From: Limihaloglobus sulfuriphilus
GTDB lineage: Bacteria; Planctomycetota; Phycisphaerae; Sedimentisphaerales; Sedimentisphaeraceae
DNA: 64,000 nucleotides
NCBI RefSeq assembly: GCF_001999965.1
Contig: NZ_CP019646.1
Span: forward strand, 1,922,001-1,986,000
Direction of reading: 5' to 3'
Shown here one piece after another: positions 36,191 to 49,654 of the stretch. The notes beneath the pieces are model-generated. The model had not been told where the DNA came from. It ran no database searches and worked only from the letters and a program-made list of their open reading frames with translations. Numbering within the stretch: position 1 is the stretch's first letter; the number at the start of each line of letters is the position of its first letter. The translations under genes and the position numbers were made by a program.

Positions 36191-36224
36191 TTAAAAGCCG
36201 GCTTTTCAGCCAATATTGCCGGCT
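36191..36224 (-). terminator. Intrinsic terminator of the 36224-50914 gene cluster
   Basis: On the - strand AGCCGGC (36218-36224) pairs with GCCGGCT (36196-36202) across a 15-base loop and is followed by TTTTAA. The first stem arm touches the stop codon of the glycosidase-like gene at 36224, a position expected for the end of the cluster. Confidence 0.5.
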
Positions 36225-38017
36225 CAGTCCTGTTCTATAACAAGAATACCCCAAAATTCAAGACGGGGAATCTGTATTGTAACTTTGTCAGCATCAGCTT
36301 TGAAAGGGAGCTCAACCGTTTTTACCAGTCTGGAATAATCTTTACTTTTTTCAGCCTCATTGTGCATTTGCCGATCATAGACACGCGGCGTCATCAATTT
36401 GAATTTCAGCTTTTCCGGCTCAACATTAAGGGCATTTCGTTTTATGTTGAGTTCAAACGGCTCTGGTTTGCTTCTTTTAAGATTTTCCATGCCCTTTACG
36501 TATTCGTATATCTTCTCGCCCGAAGCGAGCTCCCATACCTCGTTGGCGTCCTTTCCGTCGGGTGTTATCATCGCTTTGCCCCAGTCAACCAAATGCACTG
36601 CCAGAGGACTCCTGGCTGAACCGGGTTTAGAACGCACAAACACGCACACTTCGTTTTCTGTACCTTTAACCTCAAGGGGTTTATCATCAGCCTCAACTGT
36701 TTTGGTTAAAATGCCGGTTGTGCTGTAATCATAGCTGCGTTCATATCCGTCAAGGTAGTCGGCAGCTGCTCTGATAAATCCGAATGTCGGTGCGTAATCC
36801 TCCGGCTCGCCGAAAAACCTGCCGCTGCCGTCTTTGGTCTGTTCAAAAGTATCCCAGGGCACCTGTGCCAGGCCGCCGTTCGCGTAAATTGTAGCTATAA
36901 CCTTGAGATCCAGCGATTTTTTCTCATCATGCGTAACTTCAAGGCCAAGCAGTTTTGCGCTTCCGATGGTCTGGAACTTGCCCAGCTTCTCGCAGGCCCT
37001 GAACCTTTCCCAAAGATGCCCGGGGTTCGCCGAAACCATCATCAGCTCTGACATGCCGGCGTCAAAAATATTCTGCAGCGGCCCCCACCTCTGGAACGAA
37101 GTGTTGTTAAGGCTCATTGGTATATCTCTGTCGGCATAATCCTTGCAGTCCTTTACAAGTCTGGTGAAAAATTCCATTGTTAAGTCGTCCCAATATTTAT
37201 ACCAGTATTCTTTTATCGGGCATTTGTACTTACGGGAAAAATCGTCGCCGACAGGTGCGCCTTTTGCGATCAGGTACTCTTTGTAGTTGAAGTTGTCTAT
37301 CTCGCGAATGCCTATATTGTTCAATTCTTCGACGGTCAGGTTTTGTTTTAGCCACTTCGTGAAACCGGCAATGCCTGTTTTTGTGAAGCCGCCCCCGCAG
37401 GTTGTAACAGCAAGATAATGGTGCTCCGCCGCGTCACGCTGAAGCTGATCGCAGCCGGCGTCAATGAGTTTTTTGTAAAACTCAAGATGGCCTCTGTAAT
37501 ACTCCGGATTGGAGATATCTCCGATAAGCTGGGGATTCTTCCATGTCCTTATAAAGGGCATAATCGAGTAATTGCCTTCAATATCGGTCATTACAATGTT
37601 TTCCAGCCAGTCAACCGGTGCCCTGTCGCCGAGCCAGCAGGGTATATGCTGAGCCGCTGTGCCGCAATAGGTGTAGCCCATATCCTGGAGTTTCTTTACC
37701 GCATTCAGCTCACGCTGAGTGAACCAGATATAAGACCAGTCTATCCGTGTCAGGTGAAAAAGCGGGGCAACGCGGAAAATGTTTTTCTCATCCTCAAAAG
37801 GGACATCGCGTATTGTAAGTGTCCGCATACTTACATCGCTGTATTTCGGGAAAAAGGTTTTCAAGTCCCTCTCTTGAGTCATGTCATGAAAAACAGAGAA
37901 TGCCTTTTGCCCGCTTTTTAACGCGGCGGCATTAGCTGTGCTGACAAAAACCGCACCAAAGGCGGCAGCCAAAACAAAAACAGTTACTGCGAAAACAGAA
38001 ATTCTTTTAATATTCAT
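36224..38017 (-). CDS. Secreted putative TIM-barrel glycosidase, unrecognised family (member A)
   Basis: The 597-residue product has a signal peptide and then a region that looks like a (beta/alpha)8 barrel followed by a C-terminal beta-sandwich (about 470-597). It is clearly related to the proteins at 43225 and 39162. Shared landmarks are W94 in RIDWSY, D195 in QLQRD, N304-N305 in NNTSFQRW, and W388 in QVPWDTF, followed by GRFFG and YLDGY. D195 is a plausible catalytic acid because it sits at a conserved strand end in all three. I cannot assign a GH family; a distant GH42 or alpha-galactosidase-like barrel is possible. It is the last gene of the cluster, 25 bases after a UroD gene. Confidence 0.6.
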   Translation of the reverse strand: MNIKRISVFAVTVFVLAAAFGAVFVSTANAAALKSGQKAFSVFHDMTQERDLKTFFPKYSDVSMRTLTIRDVPFEDEKNIFRVAPLFHLTRIDWSYIWFTQRELNAVKKLQDMGYTYCGTAAQHIPCWLGDRAPVDWLENIVMTDIEGNYSIMPFIRTWKNPQLIGDISNPEYYRGHLEFYKKLIDAGCDQLQRDAAEHHYLAVTTCGGGFTKTGIAGFTKWLKQNLTVEELNNIGIREIDNFNYKEYLIAKGAPVGDDFSRKYKCPIKEYWYKYWDDLTMEFFTRLVKDCKDYADRDIPMSLNNTSFQRWGPLQNIFDAGMSELMMVSANPGHLWERFRACEKLGKFQTIGSAKLLGLEVTHDEKKSLDLKVIATIYANGGLAQVPWDTFEQTKDGSGRFFGEPEDYAPTFGFIRAAADYLDGYERSYDYSTTGILTKTVEADDKPLEVKGTENEVCVFVRSKPGSARSPLAVHLVDWGKAMITPDGKDANEVWELASGEKIYEYVKGMENLKRSKPEPFELNIKRNALNVEPEKLKFKLMTPRVYDRQMHNEAEKSKDYSRLVKTVELPFKADADKVTIQIPRLEFWGILVIEQD

Positions 38018-38042: not shown

Positions 38043-39122
38043 TTAACAGTTATAGTTTCTGCCCTTTTCCAGGAAGTACTCTATTGTCTCATATTCAATT
38101 TCCGGCGGCTCGGAATGGTCGCTGTGCAGTATATATCCGCCTCCGTTTTTCAACACGTATTTTACCTTTTCAAATTCCTTGTCGATTTGCTCTTTATCAT
38201 TGCTTATGAGCGCCCTGACGTCAAACCCGCCGAAAAAGGCAATCCGGTCGCCGAATCTATCAAAAAGCCGCGGCAGATCCATACCGGCCTTAACCTCCAT
38301 GGCCTGAAGGCAATCCATACCGGCCTCTATCAGCCCCGGCAAAAGCGGTTCGACATAGCCGCAGGAGTGAACTATCACCTTGCAGCCTATACTGTGGGCA
38401 AAGTCAAACAGCAGCTTATGGCCGGGAAACATAATCTCGTTATACATCGCCGGCGACATAAATGGTTTTTCCTTAAAGCCCATATCCTCAAAATAAAACA
38501 TCCCGTCGGGTCTGCCGCACCGGCCGAAAAGCTCCTCAAGATGTTTTACTGTCATCTTAGCATAGGTCATAACCATATCCTTTACCCAGTCCGGATCAAG
38601 GGCCATACCCATTAAAAGGTATTCATGGCCGCATAACCGCTGCATCTGCTCGAAGGGAGCCATCGAGGCATGATAATAAAATCTGTCATTTTCAGCCGCA
38701 ATCGTCCTTCCTTCGGCGTAACCGTCAATATCGATTCTCCGCTGATCAAAATTCAGAAGAAACGGTTTTGCATATTCCAGCCAGCTTTTATTGTCTTTAA
38801 CCAGAAAATCAACATGTTCCGGCGTACTTTCATGCGCTTTATGGAGTCTTAATTTCGCGCCGTTACCGTCTAAGACGAGTTTCGTGAACTCTGTTTCCTC
38901 TAAAATCTCCGGCTCGAAATCCATATTTGCGACGCTGTTGACACATCCGCCGCCCCTTCGCAAGTCAAGATCGAAATGCTCCCAGAAATCCTCGTCCGGC
39001 AGATAACCCTGATCAATCCATTTGCTAAGGGTTGACTGCCACGGGGTTATTGCCGCCGGCACACAGCCGCCGTTATTTCTGTTTAATGCCGCTGCAACCT
39101 TTTCTTTGCTTGTCACACTCAT
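38043..39122 (-). CDS. UroD-superfamily methyltransferase-like protein
   Basis: I chose ATG 39122 (359 residues), immediately preceded in frame by TTG, with AAGGAA upstream. The single-barrel protein has H252-S-C254-G, the metal motif of the methyltransferase branch, and HSDH where MtaA has its third Cys ligand. It is placed between glycosidase-like members A (25 bases downstream) and C (39 bases upstream), repeating the pairing of UroD and glycosidase genes seen elsewhere in the window. No signal peptide, so it is cytoplasmic. The substrate cannot be inferred. Confidence 0.75.
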   Translation of the reverse strand: MSVTSKEKVAAALNRNNGGCVPAAITPWQSTLSKWIDQGYLPDEDFWEHFDLDLRRGGGCVNSVANMDFEPEILEETEFTKLVLDGNGAKLRLHKAHESTPEHVDFLVKDNKSWLEYAKPFLLNFDQRRIDIDGYAEGRTIAAENDRFYYHASMAPFEQMQRLCGHEYLLMGMALDPDWVKDMVMTYAKMTVKHLEELFGRCGRPDGMFYFEDMGFKEKPFMSPAMYNEIMFPGHKLLFDFAHSIGCKVIVHSCGYVEPLLPGLIEAGMDCLQAMEVKAGMDLPRLFDRFGDRIAFFGGFDVRALISNDKEQIDKEFEKVKYVLKNGGGYILHSDHSEPPEIEYETIEYFLEKGRNYNC

Positions 39123-39161
39123 CAAGATTCCTTATTATTCGAATAGTAATACGGTATTAGT

Positions 39162-41570
39162 TCAGTCTGTATCAAGAGCTATCTTCCGCACTTCAACACT
39201 GCAATATCTTGGATCAATCATAAGTGCCGGGCTCAGGCTTACCATCTGTGGGGAAAGCGGCATGTCAAAGGGGCGGGCTTTGCTCCATTGCCCGCCGTCT
39301 CCAACAGCCAGACGAGTAGTTTGAGCCTCCAAGTCATGACTTATCCGCAGGGTCATCCACTCATTTTGAGCAATATCGCTAGGCAGAACGTCGCCAAGCC
39401 GAATCCGGCAAAGATAGACACTGTGTTCGCCGTCCATTAGGAGCAATTCAGCATCATTAACGCTGCCCTCAGTGATGCGGAATTCTATCGCAGCGTTGAA
39501 TAAAGCATTGGGACGGGAAAAGGGTTTGGCAGGCCCAATCCAGACCAGCCCCGGATATCTGGGACTGGGTTTGCTCACGGATATCGTGCCGTCTTTCAAC
39601 TTCTCATAAACGGGGGTATATTTCATCTCTGACATAACCTGCTCACGCAGTTGGTCCAGCGGCGTATCCTCGGCAATGCCGTCAAAGCGGCGCTGGAGCA
39701 GATAATTCCGAAAGCAGGCAAAAAAGGCATCACCGAAATCGCCGCCATACTGCCAGACGCGATTGACCATGCCGCTGATATCGTCAAACTGAATGCCGGC
39801 CGCGCCCTTGTCGATCCAGTTTTTCCCGCGTTCGATCATTGCAGTACGGTATTGGGCAGAAGCAAAAGAGGCTCCGTAGCGAGGCGGCATAAAATCGGGT
39901 CGGATATGCATCGGTTGTCCATCCGGATAACGCACCCAACCTGACCAGTCCGGCGTAAAAGTTGGGATGCCCTCCTGCGGTGGTACGCCATCCAGGGCAA
40001 TGTAGCTGTGCAGAAAACAGTCACTGCCATGGAAAGCCATGCCGTTGCTCTGAGCGTATTCGAGCGTCTTAAGACTGTGGTCATAGCTCCAACTGATACG
40101 GCTGACATGATAGCCGTCTAACGGGTCGGTATCAGAGGCAATAGCGTCATCTACCCATTTTGGCCTCTGCCAGATGCTGCTGAAGCGGATCATTCGCATC
40201 AGCGGGATTTCCGATTCAGCCATTGCCTTTCGCAAATCCGGGCGTTCGACTCCGGGCAGCTTTACGGGCTCTGCGGTATGAACGCGAACAAGAGCCCAGG
40301 CTGAGACATTCTCAACCGATACCACAGGCTCGCCGCTTTCATCGGTCTCCCAACTTACAGAAGCACTTGCAGCATCCTGCCACTCAGGGGCAGCGATTTC
40401 CACTTTACTGACCTTTGCACCCTTAAGCAGCAATTTTGAAATGGTAAACTTTCCTGATGCAGGGACTGCTGATTTGTCTTTAAAATCCCTGATAATATGC
40501 AGCACCAGCGGTGCATCCGAGGCTTCATGCTGGACACGGGGAATAGGCGGCAGGAAAGCGGACCGGTATGAGTCTTCCATCTCGAAGGGGCAATCAGGTG
40601 CGGCGGCTTTTTTAGCCGAATCCATGGCAGTACGCAAATGCGGCCGGCCGCTGAAACGCTCGGGTATCGCAGGCGCCTTGTCTCCCTTTAGACGCAGAAC
40701 AGTGGGTACGCCTGCCCGGAACAAATCAAGGATCTGCAATTCCAATGCCGACAGGTCCTGGACTCCATCTTCTTCGTAGGGCACATCCAGTACATGCCAA
40801 AGAGCCGGGACATAGCCGTCAAACCAACCGGCATGATCGTGGATCATGCGAAAGATGGGCTGATGAGCGTCTAATGAACCGTAGAAGCGGGTAAACTGAG
40901 AACCGTCATATAAGCACCACGGGACATGCATATGACAGCCGATCGCATATGAAAGACCGGTTGCACCGGCATAGGCCTGCGGGTCTTCGAGTTGATTCCA
41001 GCGCCTATTCGAAGTGGCGTTGGGCATCACCAGAAGAGTCGTATCGACGGACTCGGATAAGGCAGCGATCCCAAGAAAGTGGGCCAGGGGCTTGTCCTCA
41101 TGAAGGGAGACGACATCACACTCAATGTTAAAGTAATCGAAAGGTGCAGCCATTTCTACCCAACGGGGGACATGCATGCTGCCGGCAGGATTGCCGCTAA
41201 GAACCACGGGCCGGCGGTCAGGGTAGGCCCTGGCCGAGTAATCACGGATGCTGCCCATGACTTGAGTCATGCAATCAAGGATCGTTTCAAAATGGAACTC
41301 TTCAAAGGCCTGTCCCAGCGGGCCAAAAGGTTTGGTGAATTCGACCACACCGCCCTGGGCCGACAGTGCCGCAGCCTTCTCGGGTAATACAATACAAGAT
41401 GACTCTACTTTATCATTGGGTTGCTGATTTTGGTTTACTGCGGTTTTGCTTGCTGTGTCAACCTTCTCAACACCGTCATCAATATCTTTACAACCAGTAA
41501 ATACCACCACAAAAAAAACCAAACTTAATAAGTGTCTCAAATACATAACATTTTTTTCTTTGCTCGTCAT
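39162..41570 (-). CDS. Lipoprotein TIM-barrel glycosidase-like protein with halves in swapped order (member C)
   Basis: The 802-residue lipoprotein (FTGC near residue 26) is homologous to members A and B but with blocks in a different order. Its N-terminal part has N127 in SGNPAG, then W218 in HVPWCLY, FYG and WFDGY, which in A are N304 and W388. A beta-sandwich with APLVLHII (about 355) follows. Only then come W494 in RISWSY and D596 in GIQFDD, which in A are W94 and D195. The W-to-D spacing is 102 here and 101 in A. The C-terminal 150 residues are an extra beta-rich domain. By eye it seems more GC-rich than its neighbours. GGAG precedes the ATG. Function unproven. Confidence 0.6.
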   Translation of the reverse strand: MTSKEKNVMYLRHLLSLVFFVVVFTGCKDIDDGVEKVDTASKTAVNQNQQPNDKVESSCIVLPEKAAALSAQGGVVEFTKPFGPLGQAFEEFHFETILDCMTQVMGSIRDYSARAYPDRRPVVLSGNPAGSMHVPRWVEMAAPFDYFNIECDVVSLHEDKPLAHFLGIAALSESVDTTLLVMPNATSNRRWNQLEDPQAYAGATGLSYAIGCHMHVPWCLYDGSQFTRFYGSLDAHQPIFRMIHDHAGWFDGYVPALWHVLDVPYEEDGVQDLSALELQILDLFRAGVPTVLRLKGDKAPAIPERFSGRPHLRTAMDSAKKAAAPDCPFEMEDSYRSAFLPPIPRVQHEASDAPLVLHIIRDFKDKSAVPASGKFTISKLLLKGAKVSKVEIAAPEWQDAASASVSWETDESGEPVVSVENVSAWALVRVHTAEPVKLPGVERPDLRKAMAESEIPLMRMIRFSSIWQRPKWVDDAIASDTDPLDGYHVSRISWSYDHSLKTLEYAQSNGMAFHGSDCFLHSYIALDGVPPQEGIPTFTPDWSGWVRYPDGQPMHIRPDFMPPRYGASFASAQYRTAMIERGKNWIDKGAAGIQFDDISGMVNRVWQYGGDFGDAFFACFRNYLLQRRFDGIAEDTPLDQLREQVMSEMKYTPVYEKLKDGTISVSKPSPRYPGLVWIGPAKPFSRPNALFNAAIEFRITEGSVNDAELLLMDGEHSVYLCRIRLGDVLPSDIAQNEWMTLRISHDLEAQTTRLAVGDGGQWSKARPFDMPLSPQMVSLSPALMIDPRYCSVEVRKIALDTD

Positions 41571-41687: not shown

Positions 41688-43211
41688 CTAACCTCTTTGG
41701 TTTTCTATTATACCGGCTTTTTCGAAGCGTTTCATATACTCATTGATATCCCACGGGCTGTCGGAATAAACATCTTTTTTCCATTCTTTAAATGCCTCTG
41801 CCATTTTTGCGACACGTTCCGGATATTTGGAAGACAAATCCCTGAGCTGCTTTGGATCATCAGCAATATTATACAAAGCAATATCCTTTTGATTATTTTC
41901 TTTTACAAGCGTCCAGTCGCCGTCACGGACAGTCCAGCGGCGGTTGTCAAAATTCTTCATAAACACGCCAACCGGTTTTTCCCAGAACAGCATTCCTCGA
42001 TCAATGCTTTTACCGCCGGCAAGAACGCTTGTCAGGTCAATGCCGTCGATTTTCCTGCCCGCCGGGATTTGAGCACCTGCGATCGCGGCAAGTGTCGGCG
42101 TAATATCCATCGTCATTCCTATTTGAGAGCTTTTGACTCCCTGAGGGATTTTGCCCTTCCACGCGGCAATGGCCGGCACACGGATTCCACCTTCGTACAG
42201 ATTGGCTTTACGGCCTCTGAACGGGCCTGTACTGCCGTATCCTATCGGCCCATTGTCCGATGTAAAAAATATGAATGTGTTTTCTGCAAGGCCGCTCTTG
42301 TCTAAAGCCTTTAAAATGTTACCGACAGCCGCGTCCATGCCTTCGACGACTTCTTTATAAGCCTGATGTTTGTCTTCTCTGGGGCCGGGTCCGTAATCTT
42401 CCCTGCCGCTCCACGCGTTTGCAAGCTCTTTGTCATTTGGCCCAATATACGGATTGTGGGGAGCGGTGAAAGGCAGGTACGCAAAAAACGGCTGTGGCTT
42501 ATCTGCCGTCATGAATTTAATTGTTTCATCAGCGAGTACGTCAGTGTACCAATAGCCCGGAGCATCAACAGTCTTTCGCCCCCGGTAAAAATAAGACTCG
42601 CCGGAATCGCCGGGGCCCAGTTTCATTGTAAAATTATCGCCTGCGTTGCCGCCGGTACCGACGAACACTTCAAAGCCCTGATCCATAGGATGATGCGTAT
42701 CCATAGGCCCGAGGTGCCATTTACCGAACATGCCGGTACGGTAACCGGATTTTCTGAGAATTTCGGCAATGGTGATTTCGTCAGGTTTTAGTCCGAGAAA
42801 CATTTCTTCGCCGGGTTTGTTAACGGCTTTTATAGCATCTCCAAGCTGACCGAGCACGTTGCAAATGCCGCTTCGGTGATTGTACCTGCCGGTGAGCAGT
42901 GCCGCCCTTGTCGGGCTGCAAACCGAGCAGTTAGTATGAAAATCGGTAAGCATCATGCCTTTTTTGGCAAGTGCATCAAGGTTTGGTGTCTGGATATCTT
43001 CAACATTATCAGGTGCCGGTGTAATCGGCCGCCACGGTTGTCCGCCGCGAAAACAGCTCACATCGCCATAACCCATATCGTCGGCGACGATTAAAAGGAT
43101 ATTTGGGCGTGTCTGAGCTTTCGGGGTTGTAAAAAAACCGTCTCCGCAGCCGGCAGTCACAGCGGCAGCAAAACCGCCGGCAGTTTTAAGAAAATCTCGT
43201 CTTGAAAACAT
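41688..43211 (-). CDS. Tat-exported sulfatase (S1 family)
   Basis: The 507-residue product has an RR signal (FSRRDFLKTAGG) and VTAGC, so it may be a Tat lipoprotein. C98 in CSPTR is the formylglycine site, followed by AALLTGRYNHRSG. N-terminal VADDMGYGD and the later TSDNG give the metal-binding Asp/Asn set. It resembles arylsulfatase A-like S1 enzymes. Its stop is 117 bases before member C and its start is 13 bases after member B, so it is part of the - strand cluster. The target sulfate ester is not known; maturation requires a formylglycine-generating enzyme encoded elsewhere. Confidence 0.9.
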   Translation of the reverse strand: MFSRRDFLKTAGGFAAAVTAGCGDGFFTTPKAQTRPNILLIVADDMGYGDVSCFRGGQPWRPITPAPDNVEDIQTPNLDALAKKGMMLTDFHTNCSVCSPTRAALLTGRYNHRSGICNVLGQLGDAIKAVNKPGEEMFLGLKPDEITIAEILRKSGYRTGMFGKWHLGPMDTHHPMDQGFEVFVGTGGNAGDNFTMKLGPGDSGESYFYRGRKTVDAPGYWYTDVLADETIKFMTADKPQPFFAYLPFTAPHNPYIGPNDKELANAWSGREDYGPGPREDKHQAYKEVVEGMDAAVGNILKALDKSGLAENTFIFFTSDNGPIGYGSTGPFRGRKANLYEGGIRVPAIAAWKGKIPQGVKSSQIGMTMDITPTLAAIAGAQIPAGRKIDGIDLTSVLAGGKSIDRGMLFWEKPVGVFMKNFDNRRWTVRDGDWTLVKENNQKDIALYNIADDPKQLRDLSSKYPERVAKMAEAFKEWKKDVYSDSPWDINEYMKRFEKAGIIENQRG

Positions 43212-43224
43212 GTTACACCTAAGT

Positions 43225-44913
43225 TTATTCAGTATCGATTATCAATATTGCCCAGGGATTGATTGCAGGAACATTAACTGCGGTTTTAGAGTTATCCTTA
43301 GAGATCTCTAACTTTACAGTCTTAGAGAAACTTGCAAAGGCGCTGCTTTGTCTGCCGGAGAGCTTCTCGTTTTCTTCGAGCATTGCAAGAGCCGCCTTTT
43401 CAGCCCTGTCGTGCTCGGATTTTACATACTCAACCGGCACAGCCATTGAAACCGAAAGCCGGTCAGAATCAAAGAAATTCTTATTGTTCAAAACGAGCTT
43501 AAAGGGCTTATTCTGCTGATTCCAGTCAACAAGATGAATCACCACCGGGGCCTGCTTATCGCCGGGAACAGCCCTGATAAATGCGTAAATATCTTTCTCT
43601 TCTGACTCTATCAATACGGGCTTTTCGGCTCCATAGGGGTTCTCTTCGAGTCCAGGGCCAAATGCTCCCGCGTCCTGATAACCGCTCAGATACCTGTCAT
43701 TGGCACGTACAAAGGCATACAGGTCAGCATAATTTTCGGGTTTGCCGAAGTAGCGGCCGCGGCCGTCTCTGGTCTGCTGGAATATATCCCAGGGCACCCG
43801 TGAAAGTGCGCCCGACGCGTAGGTAGCGGCAACTACCCTGCGTTTTAGAGCAGTCATGAAATCTTCATCGAAATCCTTGCCCTGTGATTTTGGGGTACCG
43901 AAAACCTGTACCTTGCCGAAACTTCTGGCAGCCTGGGATCTTTCATAGATATGAACGGGATTAGCGGTATTGACAATCAGCTCCGAGATAGCAAAATCAA
44001 ACTCATGGTAATACGGCTGTTCCCACCTCTGGTATGAGGTATTGTTACAGGAAAAAGGCACACGTGTTTTTGCGTGAACATTAACCGCACTTCTTATGTC
44101 TTTGTAGAAATTTACCAGAGCCTGCAACTGAAAATCGATAAAGGGCTGCTTAAGAGGATTATCTGTCATCTTATTGTCTTTTACATAGCCGTTATCGAAA
44201 AGCCACTGCTTGAAATCAAAGCTCTCAAGGGCGTCGATACCTTTATTTTTCAGCTCATTGTCAGTAAAGTTTTCATCCAGATACCGGCTGAATTTTTCCA
44301 TGCAGTGCTCACAGAAACAGCCCATTCCGGCGGCGGCAAACGAATATTGAGAGCTCGGATCGTCGCGCTGGATAGTCTGGGCACCGTAATCAATATTTCT
44401 GTTGTAATATTCCAGATTGACCTTTTTGTAAGTGGGGTTATTCACGCAGCCGGGGTATATCGGTACTGTCCAATGGCGGCTGTGCTCAAGAAAAAGCGGC
44501 TCACCGTCCAGCTGAACCATACTGTTAGCTACGTATTCGCGACCCGCGGCCATTTCAACAACAACACCTGTGGCGCACTGGCCTGTCGTGCCGAATACCC
44601 TGCCCAGATCTTTTACTTTACGGATAAGCTGTTCTTCTTTGTCGTTGAACCGCAAATATACCCATTCAAGCCGGGTGGCGTGGAAGTTCTGCATCGCCTC
44701 AAGCGTGTCATAAGAATCGTTTTTATCCATAGGCCTGAAATTCAGCGACCTTATAGTAACATCACTGGCTGCCGGTACATAGTCAGGCCGCTCAAACGGC
44801 CGGGCAATTTCAAATGCTTTTTTAGATGCCTCTAACCGGGCTGAAACCAGTAAAAAAGAAATCACTGCTGAGATTGCCAGAATTATTGAAAATGATTTAT
44901 GTAAGTTAACCAT
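43225..44913 (-). CDS. Secreted putative TIM-barrel glycosidase, unrecognised family (member B)
   Basis: I chose ATG 44913 (562 residues), with AGG upstream, over a GTG at 44937. After an N-terminal membrane or signal segment it has the same order of landmarks as member A: RLEWVY, D184 in QTIQRDD, a CFCEHC stretch followed by MEKFSRYL, NNTSYQRW, SRVPWDIF, RYFG and YLSGY, then a C-terminal beta-sandwich with PVVIHLVDW. The C-x-C-x-x-C stretch is of the kind found in GH42-like barrels (from memory) and could bind zinc. Conservation of D184 across A, B and C makes it a candidate catalytic residue. It lies between two sulfatases, with 13 bases and 27 bases of spacing. Confidence 0.6.
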   Translation of the reverse strand: MVNLHKSFSIILAISAVISFLLVSARLEASKKAFEIARPFERPDYVPAASDVTIRSLNFRPMDKNDSYDTLEAMQNFHATRLEWVYLRFNDKEEQLIRKVKDLGRVFGTTGQCATGVVVEMAAGREYVANSMVQLDGEPLFLEHSRHWTVPIYPGCVNNPTYKKVNLEYYNRNIDYGAQTIQRDDPSSQYSFAAAGMGCFCEHCMEKFSRYLDENFTDNELKNKGIDALESFDFKQWLFDNGYVKDNKMTDNPLKQPFIDFQLQALVNFYKDIRSAVNVHAKTRVPFSCNNTSYQRWEQPYYHEFDFAISELIVNTANPVHIYERSQAARSFGKVQVFGTPKSQGKDFDEDFMTALKRRVVAATYASGALSRVPWDIFQQTRDGRGRYFGKPENYADLYAFVRANDRYLSGYQDAGAFGPGLEENPYGAEKPVLIESEEKDIYAFIRAVPGDKQAPVVIHLVDWNQQNKPFKLVLNNKNFFDSDRLSVSMAVPVEYVKSEHDRAEKAALAMLEENEKLSGRQSSAFASFSKTVKLEISKDNSKTAVNVPAINPWAILIIDTE

Positions 44914-44940
44914 AAAAAACCTTATATTAAAAATCACACT

Positions 44941-46467
44941 CTAAGCACGCTGATAAGTTCCAGGTATTTTATGCCGGTCCTTTGGTTTATTTTCAAGCCA
45001 CTCAAGCTCGCTTACAACAGCCAGATGTTTGCGAATCTCTTCGGTAAGCTCCTCTCTGATATCGGCATAAGCCGGATCGTCGCATAGATTATTCATCTGC
45101 AGAGGGTCGGCGGGATTATCAAAAAGGTGCCAGGGATAAACTCTGCCCGTATCGGGGTCTTTCTGAAGCGTAAACGTCCAGCGTTTAGTGCGTACGCCGC
45201 GGTAATCCATCAGCTTAGGCTGCTTGGCAATGATATAATGCGTCTCTTCGGGCAGATTATACAGTATAAACTGCGAATTCGGCTCTTTGCCCTTGCCGGT
45301 GCAGAGACGTTTAGAAAGGTCCATCCCCTGCATAGCCCTGTTAATCATGCTGCCGTGGCCTGTCAATCCAAGCAGCGTGGGAGCCAGATCAATTGAGCCC
45401 AGCAGCAGATCATCTTCCTTGTCGGCGGGGATTTTACCCGGATAACGGATTATAAACGGAACAAGTATTGACTCCTCATAAGGATAGCGTTTCCACTTCA
45501 CACCGTGTGCATAATGCAGGTCGCCGTGGTCGGAAGTAAATATCACTATCGTGTTATCAGCGATACCCAGCTCGTCAATCTTGTCAAGTATCTTTCCAAA
45601 CTCTTCATCGACAGATGATATCTGCGCATAAAAATGCTTAAGGTCGTGCATACGCCTCTCATCTCTGTATTCTTCGGGCACATTCTCCCAGTAAGGAGTC
45701 TCAATTGACTGATAGTAGTCAACCCAGTGCTCTTTTGCGCCGGGATATGAAGGGTGCGGCGGCAGAACACTCAAAACCCCGCAGAAGGGAGCTTCTTTTT
45801 GAGAGCTTTCTTCCATAAAATCTATAAACCTGTCCGTGAGGAACTCGGGTGCATAGGCGTTTATCTGCTTGTATTTGCCGTCTTTATCCCATACATAGGT
45901 ATTTCGCGGTCGGTTATGGTTGCTCGTCTGTATCCACAGATCATCGAAACCGTGCCGCAGCGGAGCGGGAGTTATCGCGGCGGGTGTCTTTACTTCTCCG
46001 TCACGTTTGTCGTCTTTCCAGATCGGGTCTTCACATCCCGGATAAAGGTGCCATTTGCCCACATAACCCATTGTATAGCCGGCGGATTTGAGGGTTTTTG
46101 ACCAGCTGGGCAGATCACCGGCGAGCGGAAAATCGCCATGGTTATTGACAAAGCCGGTCTGGTGGCCGTGCTGCCCCGTGAACAGCATTGCCCTGTAAGG
46201 GACGCATATTGGGTTGTTCGATACGCAGTTGGTAACCGTAACACCCTGTTTGGCGAACCTGTCAAGGTTAGGTGTTTTGAGCTCTTTTATTCCCCTGGAC
46301 CATCCCTTGGCGGGATGTTCATCGGTGAAAACAAATATCAGGTTCGGTCTGTCCTTGCCGCTGAAACGATTCGGGCTCTGGCAGCCGGTATTGAAAAGGG
46401 CCGAAGCACCCGAAATAACTGCTGCGCCTGCCATGCCGCTTTTTGCAATAAAGTCCCTTCTATTCAT
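44941..46467 (-). CDS. Tat-exported sulfatase with CVPYR active-site motif
   Basis: The 508-residue protein has the signal MNRRDFIAKSG with a hydrophobic core and NTGC, suggesting a Tat-exported lipoprotein. C88 in CVPYR is the formylglycine position; the usual Ser or Thr is Tyr here, which still satisfies the CxPxR minimum. FTDEHP near the N-terminus and TSDHGD near residue 315 provide metal ligands. It belongs to the choline-sulfatase/phosphonate-hydrolase-like side of family S1 by general look (for example TGQHGHQTG), but the substrate is uncertain. Only 3 bases separate it from the MFS gene, so the two are co-translated. Confidence 0.88.
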   Translation of the reverse strand: MNRRDFIAKSGMAGAAVISGASALFNTGCQSPNRFSGKDRPNLIFVFTDEHPAKGWSRGIKELKTPNLDRFAKQGVTVTNCVSNNPICVPYRAMLFTGQHGHQTGFVNNHGDFPLAGDLPSWSKTLKSAGYTMGYVGKWHLYPGCEDPIWKDDKRDGEVKTPAAITPAPLRHGFDDLWIQTSNHNRPRNTYVWDKDGKYKQINAYAPEFLTDRFIDFMEESSQKEAPFCGVLSVLPPHPSYPGAKEHWVDYYQSIETPYWENVPEEYRDERRMHDLKHFYAQISSVDEEFGKILDKIDELGIADNTIVIFTSDHGDLHYAHGVKWKRYPYEESILVPFIIRYPGKIPADKEDDLLLGSIDLAPTLLGLTGHGSMINRAMQGMDLSKRLCTGKGKEPNSQFILYNLPEETHYIIAKQPKLMDYRGVRTKRWTFTLQKDPDTGRVYPWHLFDNPADPLQMNNLCDDPAYADIREELTEEIRKHLAVVSELEWLENKPKDRHKIPGTYQRA

Positions 46468-46470
46468 AAT

Positions 46471-47781
46471 TTATACCTTTCTGATCTGAGGTTTAGCTAT
46501 TTTTTCCATGGGTAAAAACGGTATTATCGCAAGGGTAAGTAATCCTGCGGTACTGCTAAGTACAAAAAGACTGGGATAACCCAGCATCTGCTGCAGAACG
46601 CCGCTGATTCCCCCCGGTATATAAAATCCAAGCCCCATTATGCCGCTTGAAATTGCCAGCATTGACGTTTTATGCTCGCCGTCCGCTATGGCGTGGAGGT
46701 AGTAGAAAAACGCGCTGAATCCGATTCCGTATCCAAGCGTCTCAACTACTGCTGTGCCAAAGACGTAAGTGTAGAATTCCGTTCCGCCGATCATGAACTG
46801 TGCCTGCGGGCGGAATATTGCCAGGAAGATGTACGCGAAATTGGGCAGGTTCATAAACATTGTGAATGGTATAAGTGTTTTCCTAAGCCCAAACCACTTT
46901 ATAATGAAGCCGCCAAGAATTCCTCCAATTATCATAAACGGCACATCCGCATAGGTTTTGAGCATGGCAACCTCTTTGGCGTTCATGGCGAAACCGCCTG
47001 CGTCTGCCGCGTCCATCAGGAATGGCGGAACCATATACACCTGCATACCCTGTCCAAACCGAAAGATAAGCAGCATCGCTATTATTGCCCATGCTCTCCG
47101 CTGCTGCACGTATTCCTTAAGCACGGTAAACAAGGGAAAAGCCCCCGTATCCTTTACCGCATAGTCATCCTTTGCTTTGGGCAGGCCGAAAAGATAATAC
47201 ACAGCCAACACAAGCAGAGTAACAGAAGCCAGCCCCATCGCCTTGCCCCAGGCAATTTCGAGAGCCGCCCCGTCTTCCTGGAGCTGTCCGGCAAGCCTGA
47301 CAAACAATACAAGAGAAAGGATAATCCCCCCTCGTATCGCGGCGGTTTTTATACCTACAAACTCGGCCTGCTCCGCCTTGTCAAAAACCCGAATATAGTA
47401 TCCGTCAGAGGAAACTTCCAGGCATGAGAAAAGGAGCGCAAAACAGAGTATGAGGCTAAAAGCCAGCAAAGGTGTCATGTATCCAGTGTAGATAACTATA
47501 CTTAAGACCATAAGAATAACACCGATAATAGCGGTGAAGGTAAAGCAAAGACGTCTTTTACTGCCCAGAGCATCAATCCACGGCGACCATAAAAACCTGA
47601 AAGCACTCGGCAGTGACAACAGGGCCACTGCCCCGATCAAAGCATTTGAAAAGCCGAAGTCCTTAAACATAACTGAAGTCATGGTTCCGACAATTCCGCC
47701 GCCGCCAAGACCAATAGCCACAAACAGCATGGGGGTAAAGATCCATGGGCTGGAAAGCCTGTTCTTTTTTTCTATAAGCAT
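46471..47781 (-). CDS. MFS transporter, AmpG/PAT-like
   Basis: The 436-residue inner-membrane protein has about 12 hydrophobic segments. The loop after the second helix, WSPWIDALGSKRR, fits the major facilitator signature, and the general look is near the AmpG-like group that imports amino-sugar-containing muropeptides, although this is an impression only. AAAGG precedes the ATG. It lies between a sialidase-LamG gene 13 bases upstream and a sulfatase 3 bases downstream, so it probably takes up an oligosaccharide or desulfated sugar made by the cluster. The two other transporters of the window are of the SSS type. Confidence 0.8.
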   Translation of the reverse strand: MLIEKKNRLSSPWIFTPMLFVAIGLGGGGIVGTMTSVMFKDFGFSNALIGAVALLSLPSAFRFLWSPWIDALGSKRRLCFTFTAIIGVILMVLSIVIYTGYMTPLLAFSLILCFALLFSCLEVSSDGYYIRVFDKAEQAEFVGIKTAAIRGGIILSLVLFVRLAGQLQEDGAALEIAWGKAMGLASVTLLVLAVYYLFGLPKAKDDYAVKDTGAFPLFTVLKEYVQQRRAWAIIAMLLIFRFGQGMQVYMVPPFLMDAADAGGFAMNAKEVAMLKTYADVPFMIIGGILGGFIIKWFGLRKTLIPFTMFMNLPNFAYIFLAIFRPQAQFMIGGTEFYTYVFGTAVVETLGYGIGFSAFFYYLHAIADGEHKTSMLAISSGIMGLGFYIPGGISGVLQQMLGYPSLFVLSSTAGLLTLAIIPFLPMEKIAKPQIRKV

Positions 47782-47794
47782 GAATACCTTTGAT

Positions 47795-49654
47795 TTAGAG
47801 GTTTTTTAGTGTAGCCCTGAAATTGCCGACGGCTTCCGAGGACATTATAGCCCTGTTGTATATTCGAACGGTTTTTACACTGCCGTCAACATCCTTGCCG
47901 ATTGTCAGTTCATCTGAGCCGTTTATATCGTAGAGGTTTGGACTGAATCTGCCCCAGCCGAACTGCCGGTCATCACCGCCGTCACAGAACTTTCCATCAA
48001 TAATGAACGTTATAACCTTCGGCCCGCCGTCAATGATGATTGAAACATGGTGAATGTGGTCGGGCTTTATGCTTCCGGGGTCACTGCTCCAGCAGGACTC
48101 CGTCATGCCGTCATTTAGAGTAAGCCGAACATTCTCATAATCTCCGGTTGTAACACAGAAACCCCTTCCCTCGGGGGTGCGGTTATCAAAAATATTCTGC
48201 CCCGGAAGTACACTTGTCAGATTTACGTAGAAATCTAAACTGATGCCGTTTCTAAGGTCAAAACCCTTGTAATCAAAAGTGGTTACGTCTCTTACTAAAA
48301 ACTTGGGAAGTTTCGGGCATGATACAGTTGATGGATTGATTCCGACTCTCGTTATATCAAGAATCAAACCGTCCTGTTCAATCGATTCTACCCTGTCGAA
48401 GTTAAAAAGTTTATTCAGAAATTCAGGATTCAGTTTATGAATCCTCGCTGTTTCCTTGTCAGTCTCAGTAATATATATATCGTTATTTTCTTCTACCAGA
48501 TCAGGGTAACTCATTCTTATGAATGTGTCATCCGTATAGATAATAATTTCCGGCTGAGACCATTCAATAATCAACCCCTCGGGAGACTCTTTTTCTGCGC
48601 CGCACAACATCCAGACAGGATTTCTGTTTTCATAATCCTTTCCGCTGTGGTTGTGAAACCAGTAAAGGTATTTTCCGTTTGAGCATTTCCAGGCGAAGTT
48701 TGCCGCCCTGGGATTTTTTACCTTTTTACCTTTGTATGTATAGCTCAGATATTCAGGCTCGCTCCAGGTATGCCCCTCATCGCGGCTGTATGAACAGGCT
48801 GGATATCCATCTACAGTTCGATAAACACAAAAGAAACTGCCATCGCTCATAACTGAATAGCTTTGCTCTTCGGATATCGGCCCGCCGCCCGAGGGGGCTC
48901 GAAGGCCATGATCTCCATCAGGCAGTGTCTCCCAGGATATGTTCGCAGGGTCTGACTCTGTAAGAATATCGCTGCTCTTTACCAGAATGCCTTCACTTCT
49001 TGTAAAAAAGCCTTTCCCAATAGAGCCGACCTTATGAACAGAAACATAAGCAGCACCATCATGTATAAAAGGCTTGCCGACATTCCAGAAGAATCTTATC
49101 TTGCCCTGATAAGGGTTCTGCCGGTCAATCTCCATTTCGCGGATATCAACAACATACCTTTTATCCGACCAGCTTCTGCCGTGATCGTCGCTGTATTTGA
49201 ACACAAAATAGCCAAGGCTGTCAACGCGGCGGCATAAACCGTCAGGGTAAGCGTCTTTTGAAGCGATTATCTCACGCACATTATCGGTATTATGGTTATA
49301 AAAACAGAATATTCGTCCGCCGGGGGCTTTCAACAGCACCGCGTAAGAAGCCTCTATTTGTCCGGGCTGTTCAAGCTCTACAATATTCTCCCAGGTTTTG
49401 CCCTTATCTGTGCTTCGCTGCGAAATAACATGCTGGCCGCCCTCGCCTTCGCGGCCGACTCCGGTAGTCATGACACAAAGCCAGGCGCCGTCATCTGTTT
49501 TAATCACATAGGGCTGGTCTGAATAGGTCTTGCTCGGAATAACGTTTCCGTGTTTAAGGTGCCGCCAGTCGTCTTTTAAATTGCTGTAGTCATCAACATC
49601 AAGACCCATGCTGGCGATCATCTCGATGTCAATGGATAGTGTTTTTGAATTCAT
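47795..49654 (-). CDS. Sialidase-fold (BNR) protein with C-terminal LamG domain
   Basis: The 619-residue product has an N-terminal propeller (about 25-430) with Asp-box repeats SQRSTDKGKTWE, YSDDHGRSWS and YSRDEGHTWS, then a LamG/concanavalin-like domain (about 450-615). It resembles exo-alpha-sialidase annotations, but the complete catalytic set is not verified. No signal peptide is visible, implying a cytoplasmic location unless the start is wrong. It is the first gene of the cluster downstream of the GntR regulator, separated by 108 bases that should contain the promoter. The fold is also used by other glycosidases, so the activity may not be on sialic acid. Confidence 0.72.
   Translation of the reverse strand: MNSKTLSIDIEMIASMGLDVDDYSNLKDDWRHLKHGNVIPSKTYSDQPYVIKTDDGAWLCVMTTGVGREGEGGQHVISQRSTDKGKTWENIVELEQPGQIEASYAVLLKAPGGRIFCFYNHNTDNVREIIASKDAYPDGLCRRVDSLGYFVFKYSDDHGRSWSDKRYVVDIREMEIDRQNPYQGKIRFFWNVGKPFIHDGAAYVSVHKVGSIGKGFFTRSEGILVKSSDILTESDPANISWETLPDGDHGLRAPSGGGPISEEQSYSVMSDGSFFCVYRTVDGYPACSYSRDEGHTWSEPEYLSYTYKGKKVKNPRAANFAWKCSNGKYLYWFHNHSGKDYENRNPVWMLCGAEKESPEGLIIEWSQPEIIIYTDDTFIRMSYPDLVEENNDIYITETDKETARIHKLNPEFLNKLFNFDRVESIEQDGLILDITRVGINPSTVSCPKLPKFLVRDVTTFDYKGFDLRNGISLDFYVNLTSVLPGQNIFDNRTPEGRGFCVTTGDYENVRLTLNDGMTESCWSSDPGSIKPDHIHHVSIIIDGGPKVITFIIDGKFCDGGDDRQFGWGRFSPNLYDINGSDELTIGKDVDGSVKTVRIYNRAIMSSEAVGNFRATLKNL

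Follow-up and report, generated by a model that had tools for sequence, protein, structure and literature searches.

A Probable Circular Permutation in a GH96-Related, Glycosidase-Like Lipoprotein of Limihaloglobus sulfuriphilus

Models of how TIM barrels evolved from half-barrels rest mostly on engineered proteins. The permuted barrel of the GH70 glucansucrases, compared with the barrel of the GH13 amylases, has been attributed to a duplication with fusion and partial truncation (PMC4919382), and MalS, a periplasmic glycosidase of GH13 subfamily 19, carries a circular permutation at the level of domains (PMC10223318). In the Catenovulum maritimum GH96 enzyme Cm-AGA, residues Asp994 and Glu1129 have been studied by mutation, with the general base and the general acid as their respective proposed roles (PMC11311870).

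We analyzed a 64,000-nucleotide stretch of the L. sulfuriphilus genome (NZ_CP019646.1, positions 1,922,001 to 1,986,000; hereafter the window), which encodes a glycosidase-like lipoprotein of 802 amino acids, P, whose permuted order emerged from profile matches and whose gene is one intact open reading frame (ORF) in the ORF list (39162..41570, minus strand, as are all parts of P given below). The catalytic module and catalytic dyad of P resemble those of Cm-AGA (PDB 9m0b), but their order is normal in 9m0b and swapped in P. Although P and GH70 both have permuted glycosidase barrels, the families are unrelated; the GH70 barrel starts at α3, between β3 and β4, whereas P is cut between β4 and β5, the half-barrel boundary, and GH70 is a large lineage whereas P is so far a singleton. 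In MalS, it is the C domain that is split (C-A-B-A-C), whereas in P the barrel itself is opened. Thus, this kind of event is already known from GH70 and GH13, while its occurrence in a GH96-related family and the cut point appear to be new. Very probably, P arose from a single gene by circular permutation and belongs to this GH96-related glycosidase family.

The gene for P belongs to a same-strand run that also contains two paralogs, two sulfatases, an MFS transporter, a BNR/LamG protein, and a URO-D family protein. Paralog A (597 amino acids) is encoded at 36224..38017 and paralog C (570 amino acids) at 43225..44937. One sulfatase (41688..43211) adjoins P upstream, the URO-D family protein (38043..39125) adjoins it downstream, and the second sulfatase, the transporter, and the BNR/LamG protein occupy 44941..49654, all on the minus strand. 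By BLASTP, A and C, the unpermuted neighbors of P, gave an ordinary alignment over their whole length (E 3e-89). When P was compared with A, the second half of A aligned at P residues 69-253 (E 1e-4) and the first half at residues 487-626 (E 4e-3). In the comparison with C, E was 7e-4 for the first half and 0.025 for a short piece of the second half.

Using six relatives and excluding P, we built separate HMMs for the first and second half-barrels and scored them on P and, as a control, on 2000 shuffles of P. The first-half HMM reached 39.7 bits on P, compared to 5.3 for the best shuffle, and the second-half HMM reached 51.0 bits, compared to 4.3. These scores and the swapped BLASTP pieces place the motif matches from which the permutation had originally been proposed beyond chance. 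A family profile of 500 positions, derived from an alignment of 16 unpermuted relatives (A8) that likewise excluded P, gave the same order: profile positions 222-498 matched P residues 83-431 (77.9 bits) and positions 26-181 matched residues 463-626 (42.7 bits). The two pieces are complementary, leaving uncovered only positions 182-221 (~40 positions) and the first 25. Both pieces are present in 35 other non-redundant relatives, and in all 35 they stand in the normal order. The swap is therefore confirmed at the sequence level: the half-barrels of P stand in reversed order relative to the family.

The landmarks that the initial annotation had picked out from the sequence were recovered as well. 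They are N127, W218, the sandwich near residue 355, W494, and D596 in P, and W94, D195, N304, and W388 in A, with W-to-D spacings of 102 in P and 101 in A and N-to-W spacings of 91 and 84. Ten of the 13 columns that are invariant in A8 are kept in P (W494, G510, D596, N127, E150, Y208, A209, G211, P217, and R345); in the remaining columns, A375 is replaced by G, R416 is replaced by H, and V62 is unaligned. Among the unpermuted relatives, some have a LamG-like domain before the barrel (L003 and L036), and one A8 member, by sequence probably L003, has a dockerin domain.

Pfam and NCBIfam models gave no match to P, A, or C. The profile of the unpermuted family matched 9m0b, the C. maritimum α-agarase, from end to end (E 1.2e-56). 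The structure model of A, which is good (pLDDT 86.4, pTM 0.87), also had 9m0b as its top match (Foldseek E 3e-20; VIA-align Z 23.8 over 473 residues at ~18% identity). The homology of P to this GH96 enzyme was reached by way of the family profile. A and C conform to the linear order of the solved GH96 catalytic module and P does not; A and C are likely members of GH96. Two family-invariant residues of A, D195 and E324, fall opposite positions 323 and 458 of the 9m0b chain, which are 135 residues apart as counted on the alignment, and we equate these positions with Asp994 and Glu1129 on the basis of the identical 135-residue spacing. By profile alignment, the equivalents in P are D596 (39783..39785; proposed general base) and E150 (41121..41123; proposed general acid), such that the sequence order of base and acid is reversed. 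As far as can be seen, enzymes of this family would work like GH96, and P is predicted to be an inverting-type glycoside hydrolase that is held at the cell envelope by a lipid anchor.

P starts with a leader containing a lipobox-like sequence (VFTGC) and a linker (residues 1-82; 41325..41570), both recognized from the sequence. The second half-barrel, assigned by the family HMM and mapping from the A model to family strands β5-β8, follows (residues 83-260; 40791..41324). Next is an intermediate region (residues 261-337; 40560..40790), delimited by the family profile match and the architecture of relatives; an insert at a similar place is seen in 9m0b and in L003, L017, L027, and L031, and in these four relatives it separates the barrel from the sandwich. 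The β-sandwich, assigned by the family HMM, is C-terminal in the family and internal in P (residues 338-431; 40278..40559), where it retains R345, H358, and W425. The gap between the two HMM matches corresponds to a linker joining the original C and N termini (residues 432-461; 40188..40277). It leads into the first half-barrel, family strands β1-β4, which was placed by the HMMs and strand mapping (residues 462-626; 39693..40187). According to the profile, residues 627-668 (39567..39692) occupy the site of the variable β4-β5 insert (profile positions 182-221), to which they are at best weakly similar. The remaining ~134 residues form a C-terminal extension (residues 669-802; 39165..39566), which is strand-rich in a low-confidence model; searched by sequence on its own, the extension had no significant match in PDB or Pfam.

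To locate the cut, we mapped the barrel strands of the A model (residues 63-68, 91-96, 116-121, 191-194, 301-304, 320-326, 348-355, and 383-386) onto P through the profile. Strands β1-4 fell at P residues 462-467, 491-496, 512-517, and 592-596, and β5-8 at residues 124-127, 146-152, 178-185, and 213-218. Since all eight strands map onto P and the break lies between β4 and β5, the predicted order of P, β5-8, intermediate region, sandwich, linker, β1-4, and extension, is that of an exact half-barrel exchange. As roughly the segment that the profile leaves uncovered between the two pieces (positions 182-221) is also missing in unpermuted L008, L024, L026, L009, and L066, the P chain would have been opened within a naturally variable insert.

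The AlphaFold2 model of P was poor (pLDDT 50.8, pTM 0.45), with no closed barrel visible, as would be expected of an underlying alignment with 14 rows that were mostly fragments. Its best structural match was again 9m0b (Z 13.5 over 252 residues, model residues 104-435), a match that is silent on the C-terminal half. One alternative is that the halves are permuted but do not form a barrel within a single chain, with P being either a degenerate carbohydrate-binding protein or a chain that exchanges half-barrels with a second chain. The lack of a confident barrel in the P model and the high divergence of P would fit this explanation, as would the study of isolated β-glycosidase half-barrels as separate proteins (PMC4591997). 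However, P retains the two catalytic carboxylates together with N127, W494, and the YA.G and PW motifs, and these lie on both halves; the 30-residue linker is able to bridge the old termini, and low AlphaFold2 confidence obtained from 14 fragment rows is uninformative. We regard this alternative as unlikely; on the sequence mapping, P would most likely close a single eight-stranded barrel.

To place P among its relatives, we built a tree of the 35 relatives with both halves, leaving P out, and tried P on all 67 branches. The first half, the second half, and the combined data selected the same best branch, the stem of the clade comprising L003, L010-L017, L027, and L031, and the same top three of the 67 placements. 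Support in the single-half trees was moderate (57 and 88). For the combined data, the AU test rejected placement of P beside A or C (p 0.03 and 0.02), and derivation of P from these neighbors was therefore discarded. A second alternative is that P is a chimera of two paralogs, one contributing the second half and the other the first, for example through deletion between tandem genes that had already diverged. With A and C flanking P in one gene run, such a deletion is easily imagined, and the modest single-half support leaves some room for it, but the identical branch preferred by both halves and the rejected placements argue against it. As concordant placement of the halves and rejection of the A and C placements speak for a single permuted gene rather than a fusion of the neighbors, we consider the chimera improbable. 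P is best seen, from these trees, as a permuted relative of the L003-clade subfamily, to which the four relatives with an insert between barrel and sandwich belong, and not as a product of A and C. A, C, and the L003 clade share the sandwich, the dyad, and presumably the barrel with P, but have the normal order, and an extension like that at the C terminus of P was not recognized in them. The branch leading to P is very divergent (1.4-2.5 substitutions per site), and its function may have changed. The circular permutation of a TIM-barrel glycosidase put forward in the initial annotation is thus supported by the profile order, the complementary pieces, and the concordant placement of both halves.

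We also examined how widespread the permuted form is. With P as query, no full-length relative was found in 98 genomes of close relatives, 397 from the class, 343 from the phylum, and 388 from another genome group, sets that overlap. In overlapping sets of 198 and 258 genomes, a profile arranged in the permuted order aligned to P as a single piece and to the listed relatives with both halves as two pieces that kept the normal order. Scanning genome contigs and viral contigs with the single protein P gave no match, an alignment-based scan of genome contigs gave three loci, all unpermuted, and tblastn against plasmids gave no match. Neither a second permuted homolog nor a duplicated intermediate was present among the genome sets searched. 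P is so far the sole permuted member, and these searches revealed no permuted lineage.

That the permuted form is known from a single genome could also reflect a sequencing or assembly artefact joining two gene pieces. However, the genome is a single contig of 3.87 Mb that is 99.97% complete, the ORF runs unbroken across the two junctions, with a leader and a stop of its own and in keeping with the gene run, no copy in the genome is similar enough for a misjoin, and a search close to P found no leftover duplicated half. We therefore assign an artefact only a very small probability. That the swapped matches reflect chance likeness of unrelated TIM-barrel parts is the least credible explanation and is refuted by the profile statistics, for despite identities of only 20-26%, the scores far exceed those of the shuffles, the coverage is complementary, and the eight strands and dyad are placed consistently.

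We propose that permutation of a single gene gave rise to P as follows. In an ancestral gene with the order β1-4, β5-8, sandwich, the old C terminus would have been joined to the old N terminus through the linker of ~30 residues, and the chain opened in the variable β4-β5 segment. A lipoprotein-type leader would have been put ahead of β5 and an extra domain appended after β4. Most likely, the gene was duplicated in tandem, the copies were fused in frame, and the outer halves were then lost. Such a duplication with subsequent loss had been suggested from the motif order; as the standard model, it agrees with our data, but the intermediate it predicts was not found. The product would most likely be one closed barrel, with acid E150 and base D596 reversed along the chain, and would act at the cell envelope, hydrolyzing a glycosidic bond in a polysaccharide that is probably sulfated. 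On balance, we lean toward a natural and functional half-barrel exchange in a GH96-like glycosidase, cut exactly between β4 and β5, with acid and base reversed, beside unpermuted paralogs. If this is true, P is a natural counterpart to half-barrel shuffling experiments, a rearrangement of a rare type that could show how barrels get built and rebuilt, and its folding, stability, and catalysis can be compared directly with those of the neighboring paralogs. P also provides a caution: family searches that use linear profiles will split or miss permuted enzymes of this kind.

The gene run and the window, with their sulfatases, GH123, and URO-D proteins, suggest use of a sulfated polysaccharide. 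A galactan is a possible substrate of P, although this is a guess of low confidence. Positions 6362-34000 are a large polysaccharide-use region, encoding GH123-like proteins (6362, 22275, and 28131), URO-D proteins, a sulfatase, a GH116-like protein, and a BNR protein. A third unpermuted paralog, L006, is encoded elsewhere in the same genome (G000:C1:3131010-3132359).

The P gene had also been noted as more GC-rich. Its GC content is indeed 52.5%, compared to 46-50% in the direct neighbors, but the contrast is weak, as genes in the window span 43% to 56% and the GC3 of P (0.547) is ordinary. A foreign origin of P based on GC content was thus unconvincing. The first 60 codons of P have 34% GC, compared to 54% for the remainder, a contrast that exceeds those in A and C. 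An AT-rich leader is compatible with gain of the leader when the new N terminus formed, although leaders are often AT-rich. The first codons of P (MTSKEK; 41545-41570, minus strand) and the start of the downstream URO-D gene (MSVTSKEK; 39100-39125, minus strand) are identical at 15 of 16 bases, and either a URO-D-like start was captured by P or the likeness is due to chance. Methionine 9 of P is an alternative possible start.
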